This document shows, in pieces, positions 53,398 through 64,000 of a stretch of 64,000 nucleotides of DNA. The first letter of the stretch is position 1; every line of letters starts with the position of its first letter. The position numbers and the translations under genes are program-made. Source of the DNA: Natrononativus amylolyticus. Lineage in GTDB: Archaea > Halobacteriota > Halobacteria > Halobacteriales > Natrialbaceae. Under the pieces are notes generated by a model that searched no databases, was not told the origin of the DNA, and saw nothing but the letters and a program-made list of their open reading frames with translations. The DNA is taken from the NCBI RefSeq assembly GCF_024362525.1, contig NZ_CP101458.1, forward strand, positions 2,604,001 to 2,668,000, given 5' to 3'.

Positions 53398-53572
53398 GGG
53401 TCCTCACCCCGCCGTCCGACCGCTCGAGCCGACGACCGATTCTTCCGTTTTTCCCACAGCGACGGCACTCGTCGACCGAGCGGGGCGCTCAGGCGCCGCG
53501 GTGTGCCGCGGCGTCCGACCGGATCTCGAGTCCGGTTCCGGCTTTATACTCCTCGAGGGTGTACGACTCCCG

Positions 53573-54832
53573 ATGGACGTCCGGACGTTCCCGGTACTCG
53601 CCGCGGATGACCAGCGGCTGGTCGACCGGCTCGCGGTGGCAACGAGCCGGCCCGCCGCCCGCGTGCTGGCGTACCTCCTCCGTCGGGACGCAGACGACGA
53701 CCTCGCATCGGTCGCCAGCCGAACGGCGATCGGGATCGGAACCGGCGAACACGAAAAGAGCGTGGCGAGGGCGCTCGAGGCGCTCCGGAGTGCGGACCTG
53801 GTGACGAAGACGACGGCGAAGACCGCGGGAAGCGGCCGCCCGCCCGACCGGTGGGCCGTCCGCCGGCCGGAAGCGGCGACGGTTCGGACGTTGTACCGCC
53901 ACCACGCGAGGGCGTTGCTCGCCCAGGCCGAGCGACTCGAGGGCGAGCTCTCGGCGGCACTGCCGGCCGAATCGACCGCAGCGACCGGCGGGACGGGGTC
54001 GCTGGCGATCGGTCTCAACTGGGAGCCCAACGCCCTCCACCTGCCGCTGTTCGCGGCTCGGGACGCGCTCCCGGACTCGCCGTCGCTGTCGTTCGAATCG
54101 TACGCGGGATCGCGTGCAGTGGTCGCCGCCGTCGCGGCGGGCGACGTCGACCTCGGCGTCGCCGGCGCGGTGACCGCCTGTCGGGAGCGGCGGGCGGGCC
54201 GCGAGATCGTCCCCGTCGCGGTGATCTTCCAGCGCTCGACCGTCGTGCTCTGTGCCCTCGAGGGGCGGTTCGACGAGCCGTTCACGTCGATGGCACAGCT
54301 CGGGGGCCGGCGCGTCGGCATTCCCTCGGGAACCGAAACCGGACTGTTGGCCCGGTTCCTGCTCGAGCAGGCCGGGCTCGCCGAGGCGGTCGACATCGTC
54401 GACCTCGCGGGCGAGGAGCGGACGGCGCTCGTCTCCGGAGAGGTCGACGCCGTCACCGGAATGAGCCCCGATCCGGGGCGCCTGGAGCGAGAGGGCCACA
54501 CCGTCGAGGTGGTGGCGATGGCCGAGCAGTACCCCGTGTACGGCCCCGCGCTGATCGTCCACCGGGAGACGCTCGAGCGACGCCGGCCGCTCCTCGAGCG
54601 GGCCCTGACCGCGGTGATGGCGGGCCGGGCGAGCGCGACCGGGCAACCGGCGGTCGACGCCGTGGCGACGAGCGCCGGCGAGACGCCCGCGGGGGTCGCC
54701 CGGACGTTCGAGCGAGCGGTCGAGCGGTTCGACGCGGGCGAGACGGTCAGAAAGCGCGGCTGGGGGTGGCACACCCCCGACGGGTGGGCGGGCGTGCGGA
54801 CCGCGCTGTCCGGGGTGGCGAGTCGGCCATGA
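53573..54832 (+). CDS. winged-helix domain fused to NMT1/THI5-like substrate-binding domain
   Basis: 419 residues from ATG 53573. Residues 15-100 form a winged helix (LAYLLRRDADDDLASVASRT as core, EKSVARALEALRSADLV as recognition helix), then a helical linker to about 130. From 143 a periplasmic-type binding domain follows: LNWEPNALHLPLFAA at 148-162, GIPSGTETGLLARF, and a C-terminal GWGW (396-399). There is no signal peptide or lipobox, so it stays in the cytoplasm. A TTTATACT box lies 25 bases upstream. It shares motifs with the lipoprotein at 57195-58250 and opens the transporter operon. Likely a ligand-sensing transcription factor. Confidence 0.85.
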   Translation: MDVRTFPVLAADDQRLVDRLAVATSRPAARVLAYLLRRDADDDLASVASRTAIGIGTGEHEKSVARALEALRSADLVTKTTAKTAGSGRPPDRWAVRRPEAATVRTLYRHHARALLAQAERLEGELSAALPAESTAATGGTGSLAIGLNWEPNALHLPLFAARDALPDSPSLSFESYAGSRAVVAAVAAGDVDLGVAGAVTACRERRAGREIVPVAVIFQRSTVVLCALEGRFDEPFTSMAQLGGRRVGIPSGTETGLLARFLLEQAGLAEAVDIVDLAGEERTALVSGEVDAVTGMSPDPGRLEREGHTVEVVAMAEQYPVYGPALIVHRETLERRRPLLERALTAVMAGRASATGQPAVDAVATSAGETPAGVARTFERAVERFDAGETVRKRGWGWHTPDGWAGVRTALSGVASRP

Positions 54833-55596
54833 TCCGGGCGAGCGGCCTCACCGTGGCCTACGAGGACGTCGTCGCGCTCGAGGGCGTCGACCTCGAGGTG
54901 GCGGCTGGAGAGTTCGTCACCATCGTCGGCCCCTCGGGCTGTGGGAAGACGACCCTGCTACGGGCGATCGCGGGCCTGGAGGAGCCCACGCGGGGGGCGG
55001 TGCTGATCGACGGACGCGAGCCGGCGGCCGCCCGGGCGGCCGGAAACCTCGGATTCGTCTTCCAGCGGCACACGCTGTTCCCCTGGAAGACGGCGCTGCA
55101 GAACGTGACCTTCCTCCGGACGGTCGCCGGAAAACCCGCCGAGACGGATCGGGCGGCCGACCTCCTCGAGCGCGTCGGCCTCGGCGGGGCCGAACACCGC
55201 TACCCCGAGGAGCTCTCCGGCGGGATGGCCCAGCGGGTAGCGATCGCCCGCGCGCTCCACCTCGGGGCCGACCTGCTGTTGATGGACGAGCCGTTCGGCG
55301 AACTCGACGAGATCACCCGCGAGGAACTGGGCGTCGAGCTCCGGGAGCTCTGGCGGCGCGAGCGGAAGACGGTGCTGTTCGTCACCCACAGCGTGCCCGA
55401 GGCCGTCCTGCTCGCCGACCGCTGCCTGCTGGTCGACGGCCCGCCCGGACGGCTCACGGCGTCGTTCGAGGTCGACCTGCCCCGGCCGCGCGACGAGAGC
55501 GTCTTCGAGTCACGGGCGTTCCAGCGCCAGGTCGCGGCCGTCCGCTCGAGCCTCCACGGCGCGCGCGCCGAACGGACCCGACAGCGGGACCCATGA
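54829..55596 (+). CDS. ABC transporter ATPase (nitrate/sulfonate/thiamine-precursor type)
   Basis: 255 residues, starting at the ATGA overlapping the previous stop. Walker A GPSGCGKTT (34-42), signature LSGGMAQR (about 128-135), Walker B LLLMDEPFGELDE, and an H-loop TH. The class matches TauB/SsuB/ThiZ. It is the only ATPase in this cluster and probably energises the adjacent permease and perhaps the convergent one too. Overlaps the next gene by four bases. Confidence 0.93.
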   Translation: MIRASGLTVAYEDVVALEGVDLEVAAGEFVTIVGPSGCGKTTLLRAIAGLEEPTRGAVLIDGREPAAARAAGNLGFVFQRHTLFPWKTALQNVTFLRTVAGKPAETDRAADLLERVGLGGAEHRYPEELSGGMAQRVAIARALHLGADLLLMDEPFGELDEITREELGVELRELWRRERKTVLFVTHSVPEAVLLADRCLLVDGPPGRLTASFEVDLPRPRDESVFESRAFQRQVAAVRSSLHGARAERTRQRDP

Positions 55597-56381
55597 TCCG
55601 CGGTCACGTGGAGGCGCCGGTCGGCGAGTCGGGCTCCCGGACGGGCACCGTCGTCGCGCCGCTGGTCGCATTCGCCGTCCTCGTCGGCGCCTGGGCGGCC
55701 GTCGTCGCCGCACTCGAGGTCCCGCCGTACCTCCTGCCGGGCCCAGTCGACGTCGCGAGCAGGCTGGCCGGGAACCCAGAACTGTACGCGACCAGCGCGC
55801 TCGCGACCCTCTGGCGGATCCTCTACGGCGGCGGCGTCGGGATCGCCGGCGGGTTCGCCGTCGCGGTCGCCGTCGTCGCGATCCGGCCGCTGCGCTACGC
55901 GCTGGTTCCCTACCTCGTCACGATCCGTGTGGTGCCCAAGGTCGCCGTCGCGCCGCCGCTGTTGATCTACCTGGGGACCGGGCGGACGACCGCGGTCGTC
56001 TTCATCGCGCTCATCGCGTTCTTTCCGATCTGTCTCGGGACGATCGCCGGCCTCGACCGGCTCGACCGGCGCTACCTCGACTTGCTCCGGTCGGTCGACG
56101 CGGGGCCGATTCGGGTGATGGCGGTCCGACTTCGGTTCGCGCTCCCGGAGGTCGTCTCGGGGCTCAAGCAGTCGGTCACGCTCGCCGTCGTCGGCGCGAT
56201 CGTCGCCGAGTGGGTGGTCGTCGACGGCGGGCTGGGCTCGCTCGTGCTCGTCGCCTCGGAGAACCTGCTGGCGGACGTGATGATCGCCGCGCTGGTCGTG
56301 CTCCTGCTCGAGGGACTGGCGCTGTACGGGCTGGTCGTCGCCGTGGAGCGACGGCTGCTGTGGTACCGGGTGCCCGGCTGA
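55593..56381 (+). CDS. ABC transporter permease (NMT1/SsuC class)
   Basis: 262 residues, six membrane helices. The EAA-type cytoplasmic loop reads YLDLLRSVDAGPIRVMAVRLRFALP, the region that contacts the ATPase. It starts at ATG 55593 overlapping the ATPase stop by four bases, so the three genes are one operon. The convergent permease at 56404-57198 is a paralogue with the same YLDLLRSVDA motif. Only 22 bases separate the two stop codons. Confidence 0.92.
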   Translation: MIRGHVEAPVGESGSRTGTVVAPLVAFAVLVGAWAAVVAALEVPPYLLPGPVDVASRLAGNPELYATSALATLWRILYGGGVGIAGGFAVAVAVVAIRPLRYALVPYLVTIRVVPKVAVAPPLLIYLGTGRTTAVVFIALIAFFPICLGTIAGLDRLDRRYLDLLRSVDAGPIRVMAVRLRFALPEVVSGLKQSVTLAVVGAIVAEWVVVDGGLGSLVLVASENLLADVMIAALVVLLLEGLALYGLVVAVERRLLWYRVPG

Positions 56382-56403
56382 GCCGTCGACCGCCGGCCGG
56401 GAT

Positions 56404-57198
56404 TCACCTACTCCGCACGGACCGGCGACTCGCCAGCGCACCCCACTCGCGCCAGCACCACCAGCCGAGCCGCGGCAGGCCGTAGAAGCCGATCCCCACC
56501 AGCGAGAGCGCGACCAGCGCGGCGTACATCTCCGCGGTCTCGAGGCGCATCCCCGAGTCGAACACCCGGTAGCCGAGCCCCGAACGCAGGGTGACGAACT
56601 CGGCGACGACGGCGCCGATGACCGCGAGCGTCGCCGCGACCTGGGCGCTCGCGAGCACGCTCGAGGCGGCCGCGGGCAGCCGAACGGAGACGAACAGCCG
56701 GCGCTCGGGGGCGTCGACCGACCGGAGCAGGTCGAGGTACTCCTCGGGCACCGACCGGAGGCCGCTCAGCATCCCGATGGCGATCGGAAACTGCGTCAGC
56801 GTGGCGACGACGACCGCGCGAGGGACGATCCCGCGGCCGATCCAGAGGAAGACGAGCGGGGCGATCGCGATCACCGGCGCGATGCGGAGACCGACGACGT
56901 ACGGCAGCGAAATCGACCGGAACAGCCGCGACCGGAGCATTCCGAACGCCAGCAGGCCGCCCACGAGAGCGCCGAGCGCGAGCCCCAGCGCGGCCGTCGC
57001 CGCCGTCACCGCCGCGTCTGCGAGCAGGAGCCGCCGGGAGAGCCACAGCGCCGTCGCGACCTCGAGCGGCGTCGGCAGGACGATCGACGGCACCTCCCTG
57101 GCGGTTACGTAGGCGTGCCAGGCGACCACCAGCCCGATCCCGAGGGCGACGGGAGCGGCTCGCTCGAGCAGCCGCCCCGACCGGCGGCGAGCGCTCAT
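56404..57198 (-). CDS. ABC transporter permease (paralogue of convergent one)
   Basis: 264 residues from ATG 57198. Six membrane helices; EAA loop EEYLDLLRSVDAPERRLFVSVRLPAAA. Its ATG overlaps the TGA of the upstream lipoprotein gene (57195-57198). This operon has no ATPase gene; the neighbouring operon supplies the only one. It could make a heterodimer with the other permease. Confidence 0.9.
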   Translation of the reverse strand: MSARRRSGRLLERAAPVALGIGLVVAWHAYVTAREVPSIVLPTPLEVATALWLSRRLLLADAAVTAATAALGLALGALVGGLLAFGMLRSRLFRSISLPYVVGLRIAPVIAIAPLVFLWIGRGIVPRAVVVATLTQFPIAIGMLSGLRSVPEEYLDLLRSVDAPERRLFVSVRLPAAASSVLASAQVAATLAVIGAVVAEFVTLRSGLGYRVFDSGMRLETAEMYAALVALSLVGIGFYGLPRLGWWCWREWGALASRRSVRSR

Positions 57199-58250
57199 CC
57201 CCCCGTCTCGTCGGTGAACTCGCCGATGTACTCGTAGTCGGCGTCTAAGTAGTCGTTCGTCCAGACGTCCCCGGAGTCGACCGCGCCGCCGAGGAAGTCG
57301 TGTTCTGCGAGCACGTCGGCGGTCTCCGCCCAGACGTCGCCGTCGCTCCAGCCCCAGCCGTTCTCCTCGACGGCCTCGGAGACGAGGTACTCCTCGGCGA
57401 GGAGCTCCCACTTGTCGCGCTGGTTGTCCGCCGCCTCCTCGAGTTCCGGAACCGCCTCGACCAGGATCTCGGTGGCCCCCTCGACGTTGTCCGCGGCCCA
57501 GGCGGCGCCCCTCGCTGTCCCGCGAAGGAACGCCCGGACGACGTCGGGGTTGTCCTCGGCGAAGGTTCGACTCGTCGCGATCAGGTGGCCGTAAGAGGGG
57601 ATGTCGTCGTCGACGGAGAGGACGTCGATCGTCGCGTCCTGGTGGCGCGCGTCGACGACGTCGCTGAACACCCCCGCGCCCGCGTCGACCTCGCCGGTGA
57701 GCACCTGCTGGACGATGTCGGGGCCGGCGTCGGCGATCTCGACGTCGACGTCGTGGTGCTCGAGGTACGTCGTCGACATCATCCGCACCATTCCCGGTCC
57801 GCTCCCGACCGTCGTCCCCTCGAGCTGGGCGGGCTCTTCGAGTTCCTCGCCGAAGCCGTCGCGGTCGGCGAAGAGGACGACCGGGTTGCGCTGCATGAGC
57901 ACGCCCACGCAGGTCGGCTCGAGCCCCTCGCTCGCGACGTTGAGCACCTGGTCGCTGCTCGTCACCCCGAAGGGGACGTTCTCGAGGGCGACCTGGGTCG
58001 CCGAGAAGTCCGAGCCCTGTCCGCTCTCGATCTCGGCGACCTCGAGGCCGTGTTCCTCGTAGAACCCTCGATCGGCCGCCGCGTAGTACGGCACGTGGAG
58101 CCCGCTCGGCTGCCAGTTCAACAGGAGTTCGGTGCGTTCGCCCTCGAGGTCGAGCGCCCCCTCGTCGTCCCCTTCGGCCAGACAGCCAGCGGCCAGTCCG
58201 GCGGCCGCTCCCGCCACGGTCCCGAGGTACGCCCGTCTGCTCGGTGTCAT
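57195..58250 (-). CDS. substrate-binding lipoprotein, NMT1/THI5-like
   Basis: 351 residues. Tat motif SRRAYLG, hydrophobic run and lipobox AAGC (Cys23). The binding domain has LNWQPSGLHVPYYAA (44-58) and the C-terminal GWGW (about 298-301), both shared with the cytoplasmic fusion at 53573. The LNWxP-x2-xH pattern is typical of pyrimidine/thiamine-precursor (THI5/ThiY) proteins; nitrate or sulfonate cannot be excluded. It delivers ligand to the permeases. Confidence 0.9.
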   Translation of the reverse strand: MTPSRRAYLGTVAGAAAGLAAGCLAEGDDEGALDLEGERTELLLNWQPSGLHVPYYAAADRGFYEEHGLEVAEIESGQGSDFSATQVALENVPFGVTSSDQVLNVASEGLEPTCVGVLMQRNPVVLFADRDGFGEELEEPAQLEGTTVGSGPGMVRMMSTTYLEHHDVDVEIADAGPDIVQQVLTGEVDAGAGVFSDVVDARHQDATIDVLSVDDDIPSYGHLIATSRTFAEDNPDVVRAFLRGTARGAAWAADNVEGATEILVEAVPELEEAADNQRDKWELLAEEYLVSEAVEENGWGWSDGDVWAETADVLAEHDFLGGAVDSGDVWTNDYLDADYEYIGEFTDETGG

Positions 58251-58412: not shown

Positions 58413-58715
58413 TCAGCGGATCGAGAGGTCGCTGCCGTCGCGGGGCTCGGTGAACTCGAGTTCGATCTCGAGTTCGCCCTCGCGCTGTCTGGAGAACTCG
58501 ATCTCGACCTCGATCGGCTCGCGGTACTCGAAGGGGATCTCCCACTCCGCAGCGGAGATGGTAAACGAGGTGTCCGACTCGAGCTGGTCGGCGAGGTTCC
58601 GGAGGAAGGCGGCCGTCTCCGACCGGGAGAGGTACACCTCGCGCTCGAAGTAGCCGTCGGTGATCGTCCGCCGGTCGCGGTCGCGGTCGTCGGGGAAGTC
58701 TACGCGGTCGCCCAC
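58413..58715 (-). CDS. amphi-Trp domain protein
   Basis: About 100 residues from GTG 58715 (GTG 58727 is an alternative). The domain (TITDGYFEREVYLSRSETAAFLRNLADQL, and later EWEIPFEYREPIEVEIEFSRQ) has the alternating hydrophobic pattern of amphi-Trp proteins, often found in haloarchaea. Function is not established. Start codon uncertain. Confidence 0.75.
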   Translation of the reverse strand: MGDRVDFPDDRDRDRRTITDGYFEREVYLSRSETAAFLRNLADQLESDTSFTISAAEWEIPFEYREPIEVEIEFSRQREGELEIELEFTEPRDGSDLSIR

Positions 58716-58866
58716 GCCGAAGAACACGACGAGAGCGAGGATAAATCCCCGTTCATGGGGCCCGATACGTCACCGATTCGAGCACGAGCGCGCCACTCCG
58801 CGGGCCGTCCGTTGCGGGCATCGGCGACGCCACCCCTTCATAGGGTTGGCTGTCGAACGACTAGAT

Positions 58867-59160
58867 ATGTCGCTCATCGACGCGCTGGGGAACGGGACGC
58901 GCCTCGCGATCCTCAGGGCGCTCTCGCGCCGCCCGATGTACGTCTCGGAGCTCGCCGAGGAGACCGGGATGGACGGGACGACGGCCGTCCACCACCTCTC
59001 GGCGCTCGAGGACGCGGAGCTGGTCGAGTGGTACATGCGCGGCAACCGGAAGTACTACCGGCTGGTCAGCGCCGTCGAACTCCGGATCGCGCCGCCGCCC
59101 GAACGGACCTTTCTCCTGCAGGCCGAACGCGTCGAGTCGACGCCGCAGTCGCTCGACTAA
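58867..59160 (+). CDS. ArsR-type winged-helix regulator
   Basis: 97 residues from ATG 58867. Helix-turn-helix LGNGTRLAILRALSRRPMYVSELAEETGM, then TTAVHHLSALEDAELVEW, and wing MRGNRKYYRL. No metal-binding Cys pair is evident, so the sensed signal may be unrelated to metals. Its TAA overlaps the TAG of the convergent ABC gene (59157-59160). TATAG about 20-30 bases upstream is a promoter candidate. Confidence 0.88.
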   Translation: MSLIDALGNGTRLAILRALSRRPMYVSELAEETGMDGTTAVHHLSALEDAELVEWYMRGNRKYYRLVSAVELRIAPPPERTFLLQAERVESTPQSLD

Positions 59161-62060
59161 CCGTCCGCGGGGAACGTCGGCAGGCGGTGACCGGCCGCGA
59201 TCGACACCGCGACCGGCGTCCCGACCGCGAGCCACTCCTCGTGGGAGCACCGGCTCTCGAGGACGGTGCCGTCGGCGAGTTCGATCCGGTACCGCACGGT
59301 CGACCCAGTGAACCCCCGGTGGACGAGTCGGCCGTCCGCCCGCTCCGCCGTCGCCGGCTCGACGGCGAGGTCGTCCGGCCGGAGGAGGATCGAGACCCGA
59401 CCGGGGTCGTCGGCGGAGACCGCAGGTCGGGCGACGTCGGCTGCGGAGAGCGAGAGCCGGTCGCGCTCGAGCGAACCGATCGGCGTCTCGACACCACCTT
59501 CGCTGAGCCGGCCCTCGAGGTAGCTCGCCCGGCCCAGGAAGTCGGCCACCCGCCGGGAGGCCGGCTGCATGAACACCTCGCGGGGCGGCCCGACCTGTTC
59601 GATCGCCCCCTCGTGGAGGACCGCCGTCCGATCCCCGACCGAGAGCGCCTCCGCCTGGTCGTGGGTGACCCAGACCGCGGTGACGCCGACGGCGTCGACG
59701 ATTCGGCGGACGGTCTCGCGCATCCGCACCCGCAGGCCCGCGTCGAGGTTCGACAGCGGCTCGTCGAGCAACAGCACGTCCGGCTCGGGTGCCAGCGAGC
59801 GCGCCAGCGCGACCCGCTGTTTCTGGCCGCCCGAGAGCTCGTCGGGGTAGCCGTCGCGGTAGGGGGCCAGCCCGACCAGCTCGAGCAGCTCGTCGACGAC
59901 ACCCTCGTCTTCGTCCTCGAGCCCGAACGCGACGTTCTCGGCGACCGTCCGGTGGGGAAACAGCGCGAACTCCTGGAAGACGATGCCGACGTCGCGGCGC
60001 TCGCAGGGGACGCGCGTCGAGCCGTCCGCGACCGTCTCGCCCCGGAGTTCGATCCGACCCGCGTCGGGGTACTCGAGGCCCGCGATCAGCCGCAGCGTCG
60101 TCGTCTTCCCGCAGCCGGAGGGGCCGACCAGCGTGAGCAGTTCGCCCTCGCGGACCGACAGCGAGAGCCCCTCGACCGCGGTCTCGCGCCCGTAGCGCCT
60201 CGTGACGCTCTCGAGGACGACGACGGGATCCGCCCGGTCGCCGCGAGCCGCCGGGCCGGACCCAGTCGCCGCCGGTCGCGACGCGGGGGACGACTCACCA
60301 GTCGCACGGCCCCTCTCGAGCGGCCGCCCGTCGCCGTCGGCGATCGTCTCCCGGGAAGGCACCCCCGAGCGGTCGCCGCCGCTCGCGGACCCGTCGTCGG
60401 GGGAACGCGTCCGCCGGCGCAGCAGCCGCCGGTAGCCCTCCTCGCGCGGGAACAGTCCGAGAACGGCGAGCCCGGAGACGAACACGAGGACGAGCGCCGG
60501 GACGGCCGCGTAGCCGTAGTAGGCGTTTCGCTCGGCCATCCAGATGAACGTCGCGAGCGACTCGAAGCCCGCCGGCCGGAGCAGCAGCGTCGCCGGCAAC
60601 TCCTTCATCGCGTGGAGGAAGACGAGCGCCCCGCCGGCGACGATCCCGGGGACGACGAGCGGCAGCGTGACCCGCCGGAACGCCTCGAGCGGCGAACACC
60701 CCAGGCTGCGGGCGGCCTCGGTCAGTCGGGGGTTGACGTACAGGAACGACGCCCGCGCGGCGCCGACCGCGAGCGGGAGGTAGAGCACGACGTAGGCGAA
60801 GACCACCAGCGGGAGCGTCTGGTAGATCGCCGGCGCGTGGGCGGACGCCCCGGAGACGAGCGCCAGCCCGATGACGATGCCGGGGACCGCGAAGCCGACG
60901 TAGCTCGCCCGCTCGAGGACGCTCGCCGTCGACGACCGGTAGCGCGCCGCGAGGTAGGCGATCGGCAGCGCGAGCGCCGCGGCGGCGACGGCCGAAAGCG
61001 CCGACACCGTCGCCGAGTTGATCGCGTACTCCCAGCGGAACGCGAGCGAGCCGACGTAGGACTCCGGGCCGTGGAACAGCCACCACGAGAGAAAGACCAC
61101 GGGGAGGACGACGCTGAGGGTGACCACGAGCCCGCAGAGCAGGCGGGCGGGCCACACCCACCACCCCAGCCGGACGGCGTACGAGCGGGACTCGCCGCGG
61201 GCGCCGCCGTGGATCGTCTCGTGACCCCGGACCTGGGACTCGAGGGCGAGGATCACGAGCGCGATCGCGACCAGGTGCAACGAGAGGAGCGCGGCGTAGT
61301 CCCCCGCGAGGGCGTTGTGCTCGAGGTAGATCTGGCGGGTGAACACGTCGAAGCGCAACATCGCGGGCACGCCGAAGTCGCCCGCGGTCTCGAGAGCCGT
61401 GAGCAGCGTGCCGGCGGCGACCGCCGGCTTCACCAGCGGCAGCACGACCCGCCGGAACGCGCGAAATCGGGAGGTCTCGAGCGAGCGGCCGGCGTCGAGG
61501 TAGGTCTTGTCGAACGCGCGCAGCCCGGCGACGGTCGTGAGGTAGACGAACGGGTAGTTGTACAGCGTGAGGATGAAGACGGTGCCCCAGAGGCCGTAGA
61601 TCTCGGGGAGCGAGTGGACGCCGAACGGCTCGAGCGCCGACTGCACCATCCCCCGCGGCCCCCAGACGGAGATGAACGCGAAGGCGCTCGTGAAACTCGG
61701 AATCACCAGGGGGAGTGCGAGGGCGACGGTCCAGAACCGCCGGTGAGGGAGGTCGGTGAGCGTCGTGAGTACCGCCAGCGGCACCCCAAGGAGAACGGAG
61801 AAGGTCGTCACCAGGCCGACGAGGACGAGCGTGTTGAGCAGGATCTCGAGGGTTCGCGCCCGGAACACCATCGAGACGGCCCGCCCGGGATCGACCGACA
61901 GCGCCATCACCCCGATCCAGACGACCGGGACGACGACCGCCGCGACCACGGCGCCGGCCAGCAGCGTGAGCCCGACCGGCGGTCGCTCGTCGCCGTCGCC
62001 GGCCGCCTCGCTCTCTGGCGCGCGGCCGTCGTCGAGGTCGAAGGGATCGGTCGTGGTCAT
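59157..62060 (-). CDS. fused ABC importer: two permease domains plus ATPase (iron/thiamine type)
   Basis: 967 residues. First permease half about 28-290 with loop DAGRSLETSRFRAFRRVVLPLVKP; second about 300-550 with EAARSLGCSPLEAFRRVTLPLVVPG. A polar Ser/Gly/Arg-rich linker (about 550-617) leads to the ATPase, with Walker A GPSGCGKTT about 646, LSGGQKQR about 740, and DEPLSNLDA. A TOBE-like tail follows. FbpB/ThiP and FbpC/ThiQ are normally separate proteins. There is no internal start or stop, so this is a genuine fusion. The receptor gene lies upstream. Confidence 0.9.
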   Translation of the reverse strand: MTTTDPFDLDDGRAPESEAAGDGDERPPVGLTLLAGAVVAAVVVPVVWIGVMALSVDPGRAVSMVFRARTLEILLNTLVLVGLVTTFSVLLGVPLAVLTTLTDLPHRRFWTVALALPLVIPSFTSAFAFISVWGPRGMVQSALEPFGVHSLPEIYGLWGTVFILTLYNYPFVYLTTVAGLRAFDKTYLDAGRSLETSRFRAFRRVVLPLVKPAVAAGTLLTALETAGDFGVPAMLRFDVFTRQIYLEHNALAGDYAALLSLHLVAIALVILALESQVRGHETIHGGARGESRSYAVRLGWWVWPARLLCGLVVTLSVVLPVVFLSWWLFHGPESYVGSLAFRWEYAINSATVSALSAVAAAALALPIAYLAARYRSSTASVLERASYVGFAVPGIVIGLALVSGASAHAPAIYQTLPLVVFAYVVLYLPLAVGAARASFLYVNPRLTEAARSLGCSPLEAFRRVTLPLVVPGIVAGGALVFLHAMKELPATLLLRPAGFESLATFIWMAERNAYYGYAAVPALVLVFVSGLAVLGLFPREEGYRRLLRRRTRSPDDGSASGGDRSGVPSRETIADGDGRPLERGRATGESSPASRPAATGSGPAARGDRADPVVVLESVTRRYGRETAVEGLSLSVREGELLTLVGPSGCGKTTTLRLIAGLEYPDAGRIELRGETVADGSTRVPCERRDVGIVFQEFALFPHRTVAENVAFGLEDEDEGVVDELLELVGLAPYRDGYPDELSGGQKQRVALARSLAPEPDVLLLDEPLSNLDAGLRVRMRETVRRIVDAVGVTAVWVTHDQAEALSVGDRTAVLHEGAIEQVGPPREVFMQPASRRVADFLGRASYLEGRLSEGGVETPIGSLERDRLSLSAADVARPAVSADDPGRVSILLRPDDLAVEPATAERADGRLVHRGFTGSTVRYRIELADGTVLESRCSHEEWLAVGTPVAVSIAAGHRLPTFPADG

Positions 62061-62078: not shown

Positions 62079-63173
62079 CTACAGAATACCCTCCTCACGG
62101 AGGAGATCGAGCGTCGGCTCGAGGTCGACCAGCCCTGCCAGGTCGAACGACGGCGGCTCGAACTCGTCGGTGCTCGGCAGTTGCTCGAGGGGGTCGACGC
62201 CGTCGACCGTGGGGTACTCCCAGGTCGTCGTCGCGAAGTACTCCTGGGCCTCTGCGGCGGTGAGGTGAGCGACGAAGTTCGCGGCCGCCTCCCCCCGGTC
62301 GCTGTCGGCGAGCACCGCCCCGCCGGTGACGTTGAACATCGCGCCCGCGTCGTCGCTGGTGAAGGCGAGGTCGAGGGTGCTGTCCGGGTGGTCCCGAAGC
62401 ACGTAGTGGTTGGTGAGGGCGATCCCGACCTCGCCGTCGGCGACCGCCTGGGCCATCGCGCTGTCGCCGCCCGGCGACGTCTGAACGTTCTGCTCGTCGA
62501 CCATCGTCCGGAGCCACTCGCGGGTCGCCCCCTCGCCCCCGAGTTCCCGAAACACGGAGACGAACGCCTGGAACGAGCCCTGGTCGGGCGCCCACATGAC
62601 GTCCCCGTGAAACCGGTCGTCGGTCGCGTAGTCGTCGATCGAGTCGGGGAGTTCCTCGGCGTCGAAGCGCTCGCTATCGTAGCCGATCGCCCGAAACCGC
62701 CGGGTGAAGCCGACCCAGTGGCCGTCCGGGTCGCGGCTGTCCTCGGAGACGGACTCGAGTACCTCCTCGGGGAGCGTCGCGAGGTAGCCCTCCTCCTCGA
62801 GGTGGGTCATCGACTGGGACTCGCTGCCGTAGAAGACGTCCGCCGGCGTCTCGGCTTCGGCCTCGATCGTGCTCACGAGGTCGGCGGTGTCGTCGTAGCG
62901 GACCTCGAGTGCGAGGTCGTCGTAGCGGTCCTCGATGTACTCGAGGAGTTCGCCGACTCGCGTCTGGCTGCGCCCCGAGTAGATCGTGAGTTCGCCCTCG
63001 AGGTCAGGGAGATCGTCCATCGAGGTGCCGCCGGGATCGGGGCGGCCCTCGACGTACTCGGGATCGCCGAGCACGTCGGACCCCTCGTCGTCGCCGAGAC
63101 AGCCGGCGATCGGTCCAACCGCGAGCGCGCCCGCCACAGCGAGGATCGTGCGACGATCGTGTGACTCGAGCAT
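62079..63173 (-). CDS. extracellular binding lipoprotein of iron-type ABC importer
   Basis: 364 residues from ATG 63173. HDRRTILAVAG twin-arginine and lipobox IAGC (Cys24). The binding fold matches Fe3+/thiamine receptors: LTIYSGRSQTRVGELLEYIE near residue 59, VFYGSESQSM, and VMWAPDQGSFQAFV. It starts 18 bases before the fused transporter on the same strand, so they form an operon. Iron is the likelier substrate; the Tyr pair used by FbpA could not be verified. Confidence 0.9.
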   Translation of the reverse strand: MLESHDRRTILAVAGALAVGPIAGCLGDDEGSDVLGDPEYVEGRPDPGGTSMDDLPDLEGELTIYSGRSQTRVGELLEYIEDRYDDLALEVRYDDTADLVSTIEAEAETPADVFYGSESQSMTHLEEEGYLATLPEEVLESVSEDSRDPDGHWVGFTRRFRAIGYDSERFDAEELPDSIDDYATDDRFHGDVMWAPDQGSFQAFVSVFRELGGEGATREWLRTMVDEQNVQTSPGGDSAMAQAVADGEVGIALTNHYVLRDHPDSTLDLAFTSDDAGAMFNVTGGAVLADSDRGEAAANFVAHLTAAEAQEYFATTTWEYPTVDGVDPLEQLPSTDEFEPPSFDLAGLVDLEPTLDLLREEGIL

Positions 63174-63555: not shown

Positions 63556-64000
63556 ATGACACCATACAAGACACATACGACGACGCGACGAACGATTCTC
63601 CAGGCGGTCGCGGCCGGGACCGCAGTCAGCGTCGTAACAAAGGCGGTAGCGGCACAGGAGGCGCTCGACGGAGAGATCGAACTCGGCGGTCGACGAAGCG
63701 CCTGGGTCGGCCAGGCGCCCGACGAGATCGCCGACGAACGGAACCCGACGCTGCGTCTGACCGAGGGTCAGGAGTACACGCTTACCTGGGAGAACCTCGA
63801 CGGTGACGGGCACAACGTCGTCATCGAGGACGAGGACGGCGAGAACTTCCTCAGCACGGACATCGTCTCCGGCGTCGGTACGACCCAGACCGTCGAGTTC
63901 ACCGCGGAGGCCGGAATGGCCGAGTACTACTGTGCGCCCCACCCCTCGTCGATGCGCGGCGAGATCGAACTCGTCGACGGCGAGGAGGCCGAGGAGGAAG
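63556..64000 (+). CDS. Tat-exported blue-copper protein (plastocyanin/halocyanin-like), 3' end outside window
   Basis: 148 residues visible, cut by the right edge. Tat signal TRRTILQAVAAGTAV (residues 10-24) to about 33 (VAAQE). The cupredoxin domain has copper ligands His86 (DGHNV), Cys126, His129 and Met133 in YYCAPHPSSM, spaced as in type 1 copper sites. It probably carries electrons outside the membrane. The visible end is a Glu-rich tail (GEEAEEE), perhaps the start of a linker. Confidence 0.88.
   Translation, partial: MTPYKTHTTTRRTILQAVAAGTAVSVVTKAVAAQEALDGEIELGGRRSAWVGQAPDEIADERNPTLRLTEGQEYTLTWENLDGDGHNVVIEDEDGENFLSTDIVSGVGTTQTVEFTAEAGMAEYYCAPHPSSMRGEIELVDGEEAEEE

Follow-up and report, generated by a model that had tools for sequence, protein, structure and literature searches.

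Which molecule is recognized by a binding protein of importer-receptor type that has no export signal, is joined to a DNA-binding domain and heads the operon of an importer with a receptor of the same family? This question is raised by a five-gene locus of the haloarchaeon Natrononativus amylolyticus (genome size 3.99 Mb), analyzed here in a window of 64,000 nucleotides (contig NZ_CP101458.1, positions 2,604,001 to 2,668,000). The genes form two convergent operons, fusion-ATPase-permease 1 on the plus strand and receptor-permease 2 on the minus strand, and neighboring genes inside either operon share 4-bp overlaps:

53573-54832, plus strand: whole fusion gene, 419 aa, heading the plus operon
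53573-53962, plus strand: predicted N-terminal winged-helix domain of the fusion, aa 1-130 (AlphaFold2 model, Pfam MarR_2 in relatives, weak PDB matches)
53999-54829, plus strand: binding domain of NMT1/ThiY type at the C-terminus of the fusion, aa 143-419, without signal peptide (PF09084, Foldseek, VIA-align)
54829-55596, plus strand: ATP-binding cassette (ABC) ATPase (PF00005, 123 bits; Walker A GPSGCGKTT, LSGGM and LLLMDEP all present)
55593-56381, plus strand: permease 1 with YLDLLRSVDA coupling loop (PF00528, 65 bits)
56404-57198, minus strand: permease 2 with YLDLLRSVDA loop (PF00528, 76 bits)
57195-58250, minus strand: exported lipoprotein receptor of the NMT1 family (TAT-type RR and lipobox LAAGC, read from the sequence; PF09084, 112 bits)

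We propose, as a tentative reading that falls somewhat short of probable, that the locus encodes an importer of the cofactor pyrroloquinoline quinone (PQQ) together with a cytoplasmic one-component regulator that senses the imported molecule. The importer-receptor-like domain would sit in the cytoplasm and bind the imported molecule, most likely PQQ. Ligand binding would alter DNA binding by the dimeric winged helix of the 419-aa protein, which would control the importer (lipoprotein receptor, heterodimer of the two permeases, ATPase dimer) and probably also the nearby quinoprotein dehydrogenases.

Architecture of the fusion protein

An earlier note on this DNA had described the first protein of the plus operon as a winged helix joined, with no export signal, to a complete NMT1/THI5-like binding domain. 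This description held in every part. An AlphaFold2 model of the fusion, built with 31 haloarchaeal sequences, was confident (pLDDT 91, pTM 0.89) and showed four helices and a two-stranded wing in residues 11-96 (order helix-helix-helix-helix-strand-strand), so that the N-terminal 100 residues, whose fold the note had wanted checked, are predicted to form a winged helix. A long helix follows (residues 100-127), which likely serves dimerization, and after a flexible linker (residues 133-139) comes the two-lobed binding domain (residues 143-416 in the model). From a single sequence the signal of the N-terminal domain was weak; MarR_2 was matched in 11 of 25 relatives, and the domain profile pointed to MarR/Lrs14-like regulators, with weak PDB matches (2d1h, Lrs14). 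The binding domain scored 77.4 bits against PF09084 (NMT1; Pfam gathering cut-off 20.5 bits). None of 37 fusion relatives examined carried an export signal. With a predicted DNA-binding fold and a ligand-binding domain in one signal-less protein, the fusion has the composition of a one-component regulator, as judged from the model and from helix-turn-helix profiles in relatives.

The importer and its two permeases

Gene calls and Pfam confirmed the split of the importer between the operons, the plus operon contributing ATPase and permease, the minus operon only receptor and permease. The ATPase matched ABC_tran, each permease BPD_transp_1, and fusion as well as lipoprotein NMT1, always above cut-off, and all features of a type I ABC importer are present: an exported receptor, two permeases with coupling loops and an ATPase with Walker and signature motifs. 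The AlphaFold2 model of the receptor lipoprotein reached a pLDDT of 88.

The two permeases, each kept as a separate gene, show 39% identity along most of their length and share the YLDLLRSVDA loop from which a heterodimer with the single ATPase had been suggested. The family includes a third receptor system, whose receptor type adjoins the fusion regulator in loci L062 and L055; there a single chain of 511-540 aa contains two permease domains (L055 6241-7776, L062 8308-9930), and L099 2473-3639, also of the third receptor type, contains the beginning of the second permease domain in the same frame. Since related systems naturally join two permease domains in one polypeptide, permease 1 and permease 2 would be expected to pair as a heterodimer with the one ATPase. 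A single ATPase gene can supply both ATPase copies, as in other type I importers.

Distribution and neighborhood of the fusion

Of 392 genomes from the order Halobacteriales, 57 contain a full-length fusion (35-53% identity), a conservation that chance would by no means give. Outside the order, none was detected in 295 genomes of the phylum, and a contig search for related loci returned haloarchaea only. About 20 loci, spread over several families, have the whole convergent five-gene block.

The idea that the fusion always neighbors the transporter stood only in part. Fusion and receptor lie at most 20 kb apart in 31 of the 37 genomes having both, but the block receptor is missing from 20 of the 57 fusion genomes, most of which retain a PQQ dehydrogenase, and one such locus bears a deletion scar: in Halostagnicola (L043) an intact fusion precedes two stubs, one with the first 85 ATPase residues and one with the first 86 receptor residues, the rest of the block being deleted. 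Natrinema, Natrialba and Halopiger have the fusion with no transporter beside it; Halorussus, Halolamina and Halovivax have the four transporter genes without the fusion. That fusion and transporter can be lost separately argues that the regulator has further targets beyond the importer. It probably also controls dehydrogenase genes, because about a third of the fusion genomes are without the adjacent importer's receptor.

The fusion genomes without block receptor, the Halostagnicola remnant and the importers without a fusion also speak for a different account, in which the fusion mainly regulates dehydrogenase genes or other targets and its place in the importer operon is historical. However, the fusion is the first gene of an operon whose members overlap by 4 bp, ATPase and permease following it, and most families keep it in this position; we consider this other account improbable.

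Association with PQQ dehydrogenases

The proposal that the locus serves a PQQ-dependent metabolism draws on its genomic company. Recurrent neighbors are PQQ alcohol dehydrogenases (PF01011), a halocyanin fusion with glucose/sorbosone dehydrogenase (GSDH; PF07995), the protein c6, a Na/Ca exchanger, an Amphi-Trp protein and a small ArsR-like protein, the enzymes being identified as PQQ enzymes by Pfam/NCBIfam. In the genome studied here, a PQQ alcohol dehydrogenase (L074 9713-11602, minus strand) and c6 (L074 11608-12543) lie just beyond the end of the window, and the GSDH gene begins within it:

63556-64000, plus strand: start of halocyanin plus glucose/sorbosone (PQQ) dehydrogenase fusion, running past the window end

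Of the 392 genomes of the order, 75 have a receptor of the family (counted at E <= 1e-40), 74 have a PQQ alcohol dehydrogenase and 72 have both (Fisher p 2e-72). Within four genera that show both states, receptor and dehydrogenase agreed perfectly (stratified p 6e-7, genomes with genus given), and in a sample of genomes without receptors nothing beyond weak matches of repeat type to the dehydrogenase family was found. The dehydrogenase gene lies at most 20 kb from the fusion in 40 of 55 genomes and from the receptor in 40 of 47; in several genomes the fusion or receptor and dehydrogenase genes are far apart. This co-occurrence of the receptor family with PQQ alcohol dehydrogenases, across the order and within genera, is new here.

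None of 34 PQQ alcohol dehydrogenases examined carried an export signal. All 34 relatives have the motif WDYD(S/A/G), with the extra Asp two residues past the catalytic Asp that marks lanthanide-type enzymes. The best PDB match of the local enzyme is a quinoprotein ethanol dehydrogenase, its HDWWDYD aligning to the HDGWDFD site of 6zcv/6zcw, which we take to be the lanthanide enzyme PedH. The c6 protein, a partner of about 300 aa encoded immediately upstream of the dehydrogenase, has a twin-arginine-like start in about 13 of 33 cases, in some genera but not in others. Because of this start in c6 and the missing export signals of the enzyme, the dehydrogenase would fold in the cytoplasm, and c6 may carry it across the membrane in some species.

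What co-occurs and is linked with the locus is the enzymes rather than PQQ as such, and the ligand of importer and sensor could instead be another molecule linked to PQQ dehydrogenases, such as a substrate, a product or a metal chelate. The lanthanide-type WDYD motif and the match to an ethanol dehydrogenase would suit this, as would the aldehyde ferredoxin oxidoreductase, formate dehydrogenase, Na/Ca exchanger and VOC proteins that are also encoded close by. Simple alcohols, however, require no ABC importer, and because two unrelated PQQ enzyme folds (PF01011 and GSDH) recur beside the block, the common factor would be the cofactor and not any one substrate. On balance we regard a ligand of this other kind as rather unlikely.

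Genomes with PQQ dehydrogenases also contain another conserved gene group, the SBP2 cluster (L079 9875-13733; L080-L085, L087-L094), in which three signal-less proteins with a receptor fold (SBP2, c15, X300) are encoded in tandem, together with a VOC and a cupin protein and with no ABC permease beside them. The block receptor is present in 47 and SBP2 in 51 of the 74 genomes with a dehydrogenase, both in 26 and neither in 2 (p 7e-4), which indicates partial replacement. The block importer and the SBP2 cluster as two routes to one compound would fit this pattern, for which any account of the locus has to provide; it is possible that the proteins of the cluster are cytoplasmic enzymes or handle PQQ.

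Candidate ligands: PQQ or a thiamine precursor

Fusion and lipoprotein are the only NMT1-family proteins detected in this genome at E <= 1e-10. The earlier note had suggested that they may be two copies of one receptor, from shared LNWxP and GWGW motifs. Both motifs are indeed present (LNWEPNALH and GWGW in the fusion, LNWQPSGLH and GWGW in the lipoprotein), but LNWxPNxxH is typical of the entire NMT1/ThiY/THI5 family (compare LDWYPNAVH in 3ix1) and is not private to the pair. "Two copies" also proved too strong a description: the binding domains are 31% identical, the fusions form one clade apart from the receptors, pointing to a single origin, and the conserved residues differ (SETG..R and YGP in the fusion, GPGMVR and YGH in the receptor). 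Because of this divergence in identity and conserved residues, the ligands of fusion and receptor may be related rather than identical.

The folds nearest to the binding domain of the fusion are ThiY 3ix1 (Foldseek TMt 0.74; VIA-align Z 27), the thiamin-binding protein 4nmy (Z 24) and THI5. These are the closest solved structures by both sequence and fold, as would be expected if the locus encoded an importer of thiamine or its precursors, 4-amino-5-hydroxymethyl-2-methylpyrimidine (HMP) or FAMP, with a cytoplasmic HMP sensor; HMP and thiamine had been listed earlier among the candidate ligands. The genomic context disfavors them. No thiamine gene was recognized among the recurrent neighbors, this genome itself contains thiC, as do 33 of 47 receptor-carrying genomes tested, and the receptor family, which tracks PQQ dehydrogenases, is absent from Haloferax volcanii and from one tested haloarchaeon without PQQ dehydrogenase. 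A thiamine role is thus in our view quite unlikely.

For PQQ, the supply side was examined. PqqC, which belongs to the standard synthesis of PQQ, was found in none of 77 carrier genomes by a search that recovered the positive control, S. meliloti pSymB, at 5e-129; for PqqE nothing exceeded the cut-off, in a search that is uninformative since generic radical-SAM proteins match everywhere. The carriers appear to have no standard route to PQQ, and since the dehydrogenases examined are without export signals, PQQ would be needed in the cytoplasm, whether or not the enzyme later leaves with c6. PQQ would then be the most likely candidate for the molecule that is imported and sensed. A fuller version, that haloarchaea which do not produce PQQ use a dedicated ABC importer to bring it into the cytoplasm, sense it with the fusion and run signal-less lanthanide-type dehydrogenases, is possible, though we hold it with more doubt than conviction.

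Several observations weigh against the assignment to PQQ and its sensing. The nearest solved relatives bind thiamine or pyrimidine precursors. The periplasmic PQQ-binding protein PqqT ranks below them by fold (Z 19.5; TMt 0.66-0.72) and was not among the sequence-profile matches up to E 5, its likeness being at the level of fold only. The low identity between receptor and fusion domains points the same way. Some PQQ-dehydrogenase genomes hold only the signal-less SBP2 receptor type, without this importer, and linked transfer may inflate the co-occurrence of receptor and dehydrogenase. Finally, the receptor copy inside the cell had been suggested to control transcription. We infer such control by the fusion, together with its DNA target and the direction of regulation; no operator common to the fusion, receptor and dehydrogenase-operon promoters was found when the 40 nt upstream of each were set, locus by locus, beside those of other promoters, over which they showed no excess (mean z around 0).

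A promoter element was read from the sequence upstream of the fusion, and the transcript is likely leaderless:

53540-53572, plus strand: TATA-like promoter TTTATA, about 28 nt 5' of the fusion ATG

A CATAA-N4-TTATG inverted repeat 5' of the fusion was seen in Natronococcus and in no other genus.

If PQQ import and sensing are correct, the locus would explain how signal-less PQQ enzymes are supplied with cofactor in cells that do not make it, and would add a transcription factor that senses through a complete importer-type receptor. A single locus would then combine PQQ import across the inner membrane, a transcription factor that responds to PQQ and quinoprotein metabolism in archaea, and from it the archaeal use of PQQ, and perhaps of rare earths, would become directly testable in culturable genera.

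Relation to known sensors and receptors

Fusions of a helix-turn-helix domain to a molybdate-binding-type domain combine a winged helix with a type II periplasmic-binding fold as a cytoplasmic sensor. The same combination occurs in LysR-type regulators such as OxyR (6g4r, a fold match); here, by contrast, the winged helix is another one, the binding domain belongs to the NMT1 branch and a whole ABC importer is attached. In the NasS-NasT system, NasS, a signal-less receptor homologue related to NrtA, acts as cytoplasmic nitrate sensor (PMC3795266). It resembles the fusion in lacking a signal, but works through a separate RNA-binding partner, whereas the present candidate sensor is joined to a winged helix and is found in archaea. 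The C-terminal regulatory domains of the NrtC/CmpC ATPases (8wm7, 9u9z; fold Z about 18-19) likewise place a second receptor-like domain of one and the same transporter in the cytoplasm; they are joined to the ATPase and act on transport, not on DNA.

Among the receptors, ThiY/ThiXYZ and THI5 (3ix1, 4nmy, 4h65) are closest to both binding domains in sequence and fold and differ from the present system in its DNA-binding fusion, its lack of thiamine context and a genome pattern that follows PQQ enzymes. PqqT (9b1u, 9b1v), described as a periplasmic PQQ-binding protein in work cited in PMC12124388, is a receptor-type protein that belongs to PQQ metabolism and has the general fold of the binding domains, but no sequence-profile relation to them was detected. 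In the open-licence papers searched we found nothing on haloarchaeal PQQ dehydrogenases or on fusions of an NMT1 receptor and a winged helix beside their importer. Cytoplasmic receptor-like domains as such have precedents in NasS and NrtC/CmpC.

Adjacent genes

Two divergent genes lie beside the block:

58413-58727, minus strand: Amphi-Trp domain protein (member of cluster c3, seen in 24 loci; a homologue matches Pfam PF20068)
58867-59160, plus strand: small winged-helix protein resembling ArsR, its gene divergent from that of the Amphi-Trp protein (member of cluster c5, seen in 22 loci; a homologue matches Pfam HTH_20/HTH_5)

The two stay side by side at this place in over 20 haloarchaea, including some that no longer have the ABC genes. 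Further along the window, the minus-strand gene at 59157-62060 appears from its sequence to encode a permease and an ATPase joined in one 967-aa protein of an iron-type ABC system, with its own exported receptor at 62079-63173 on the same strand.

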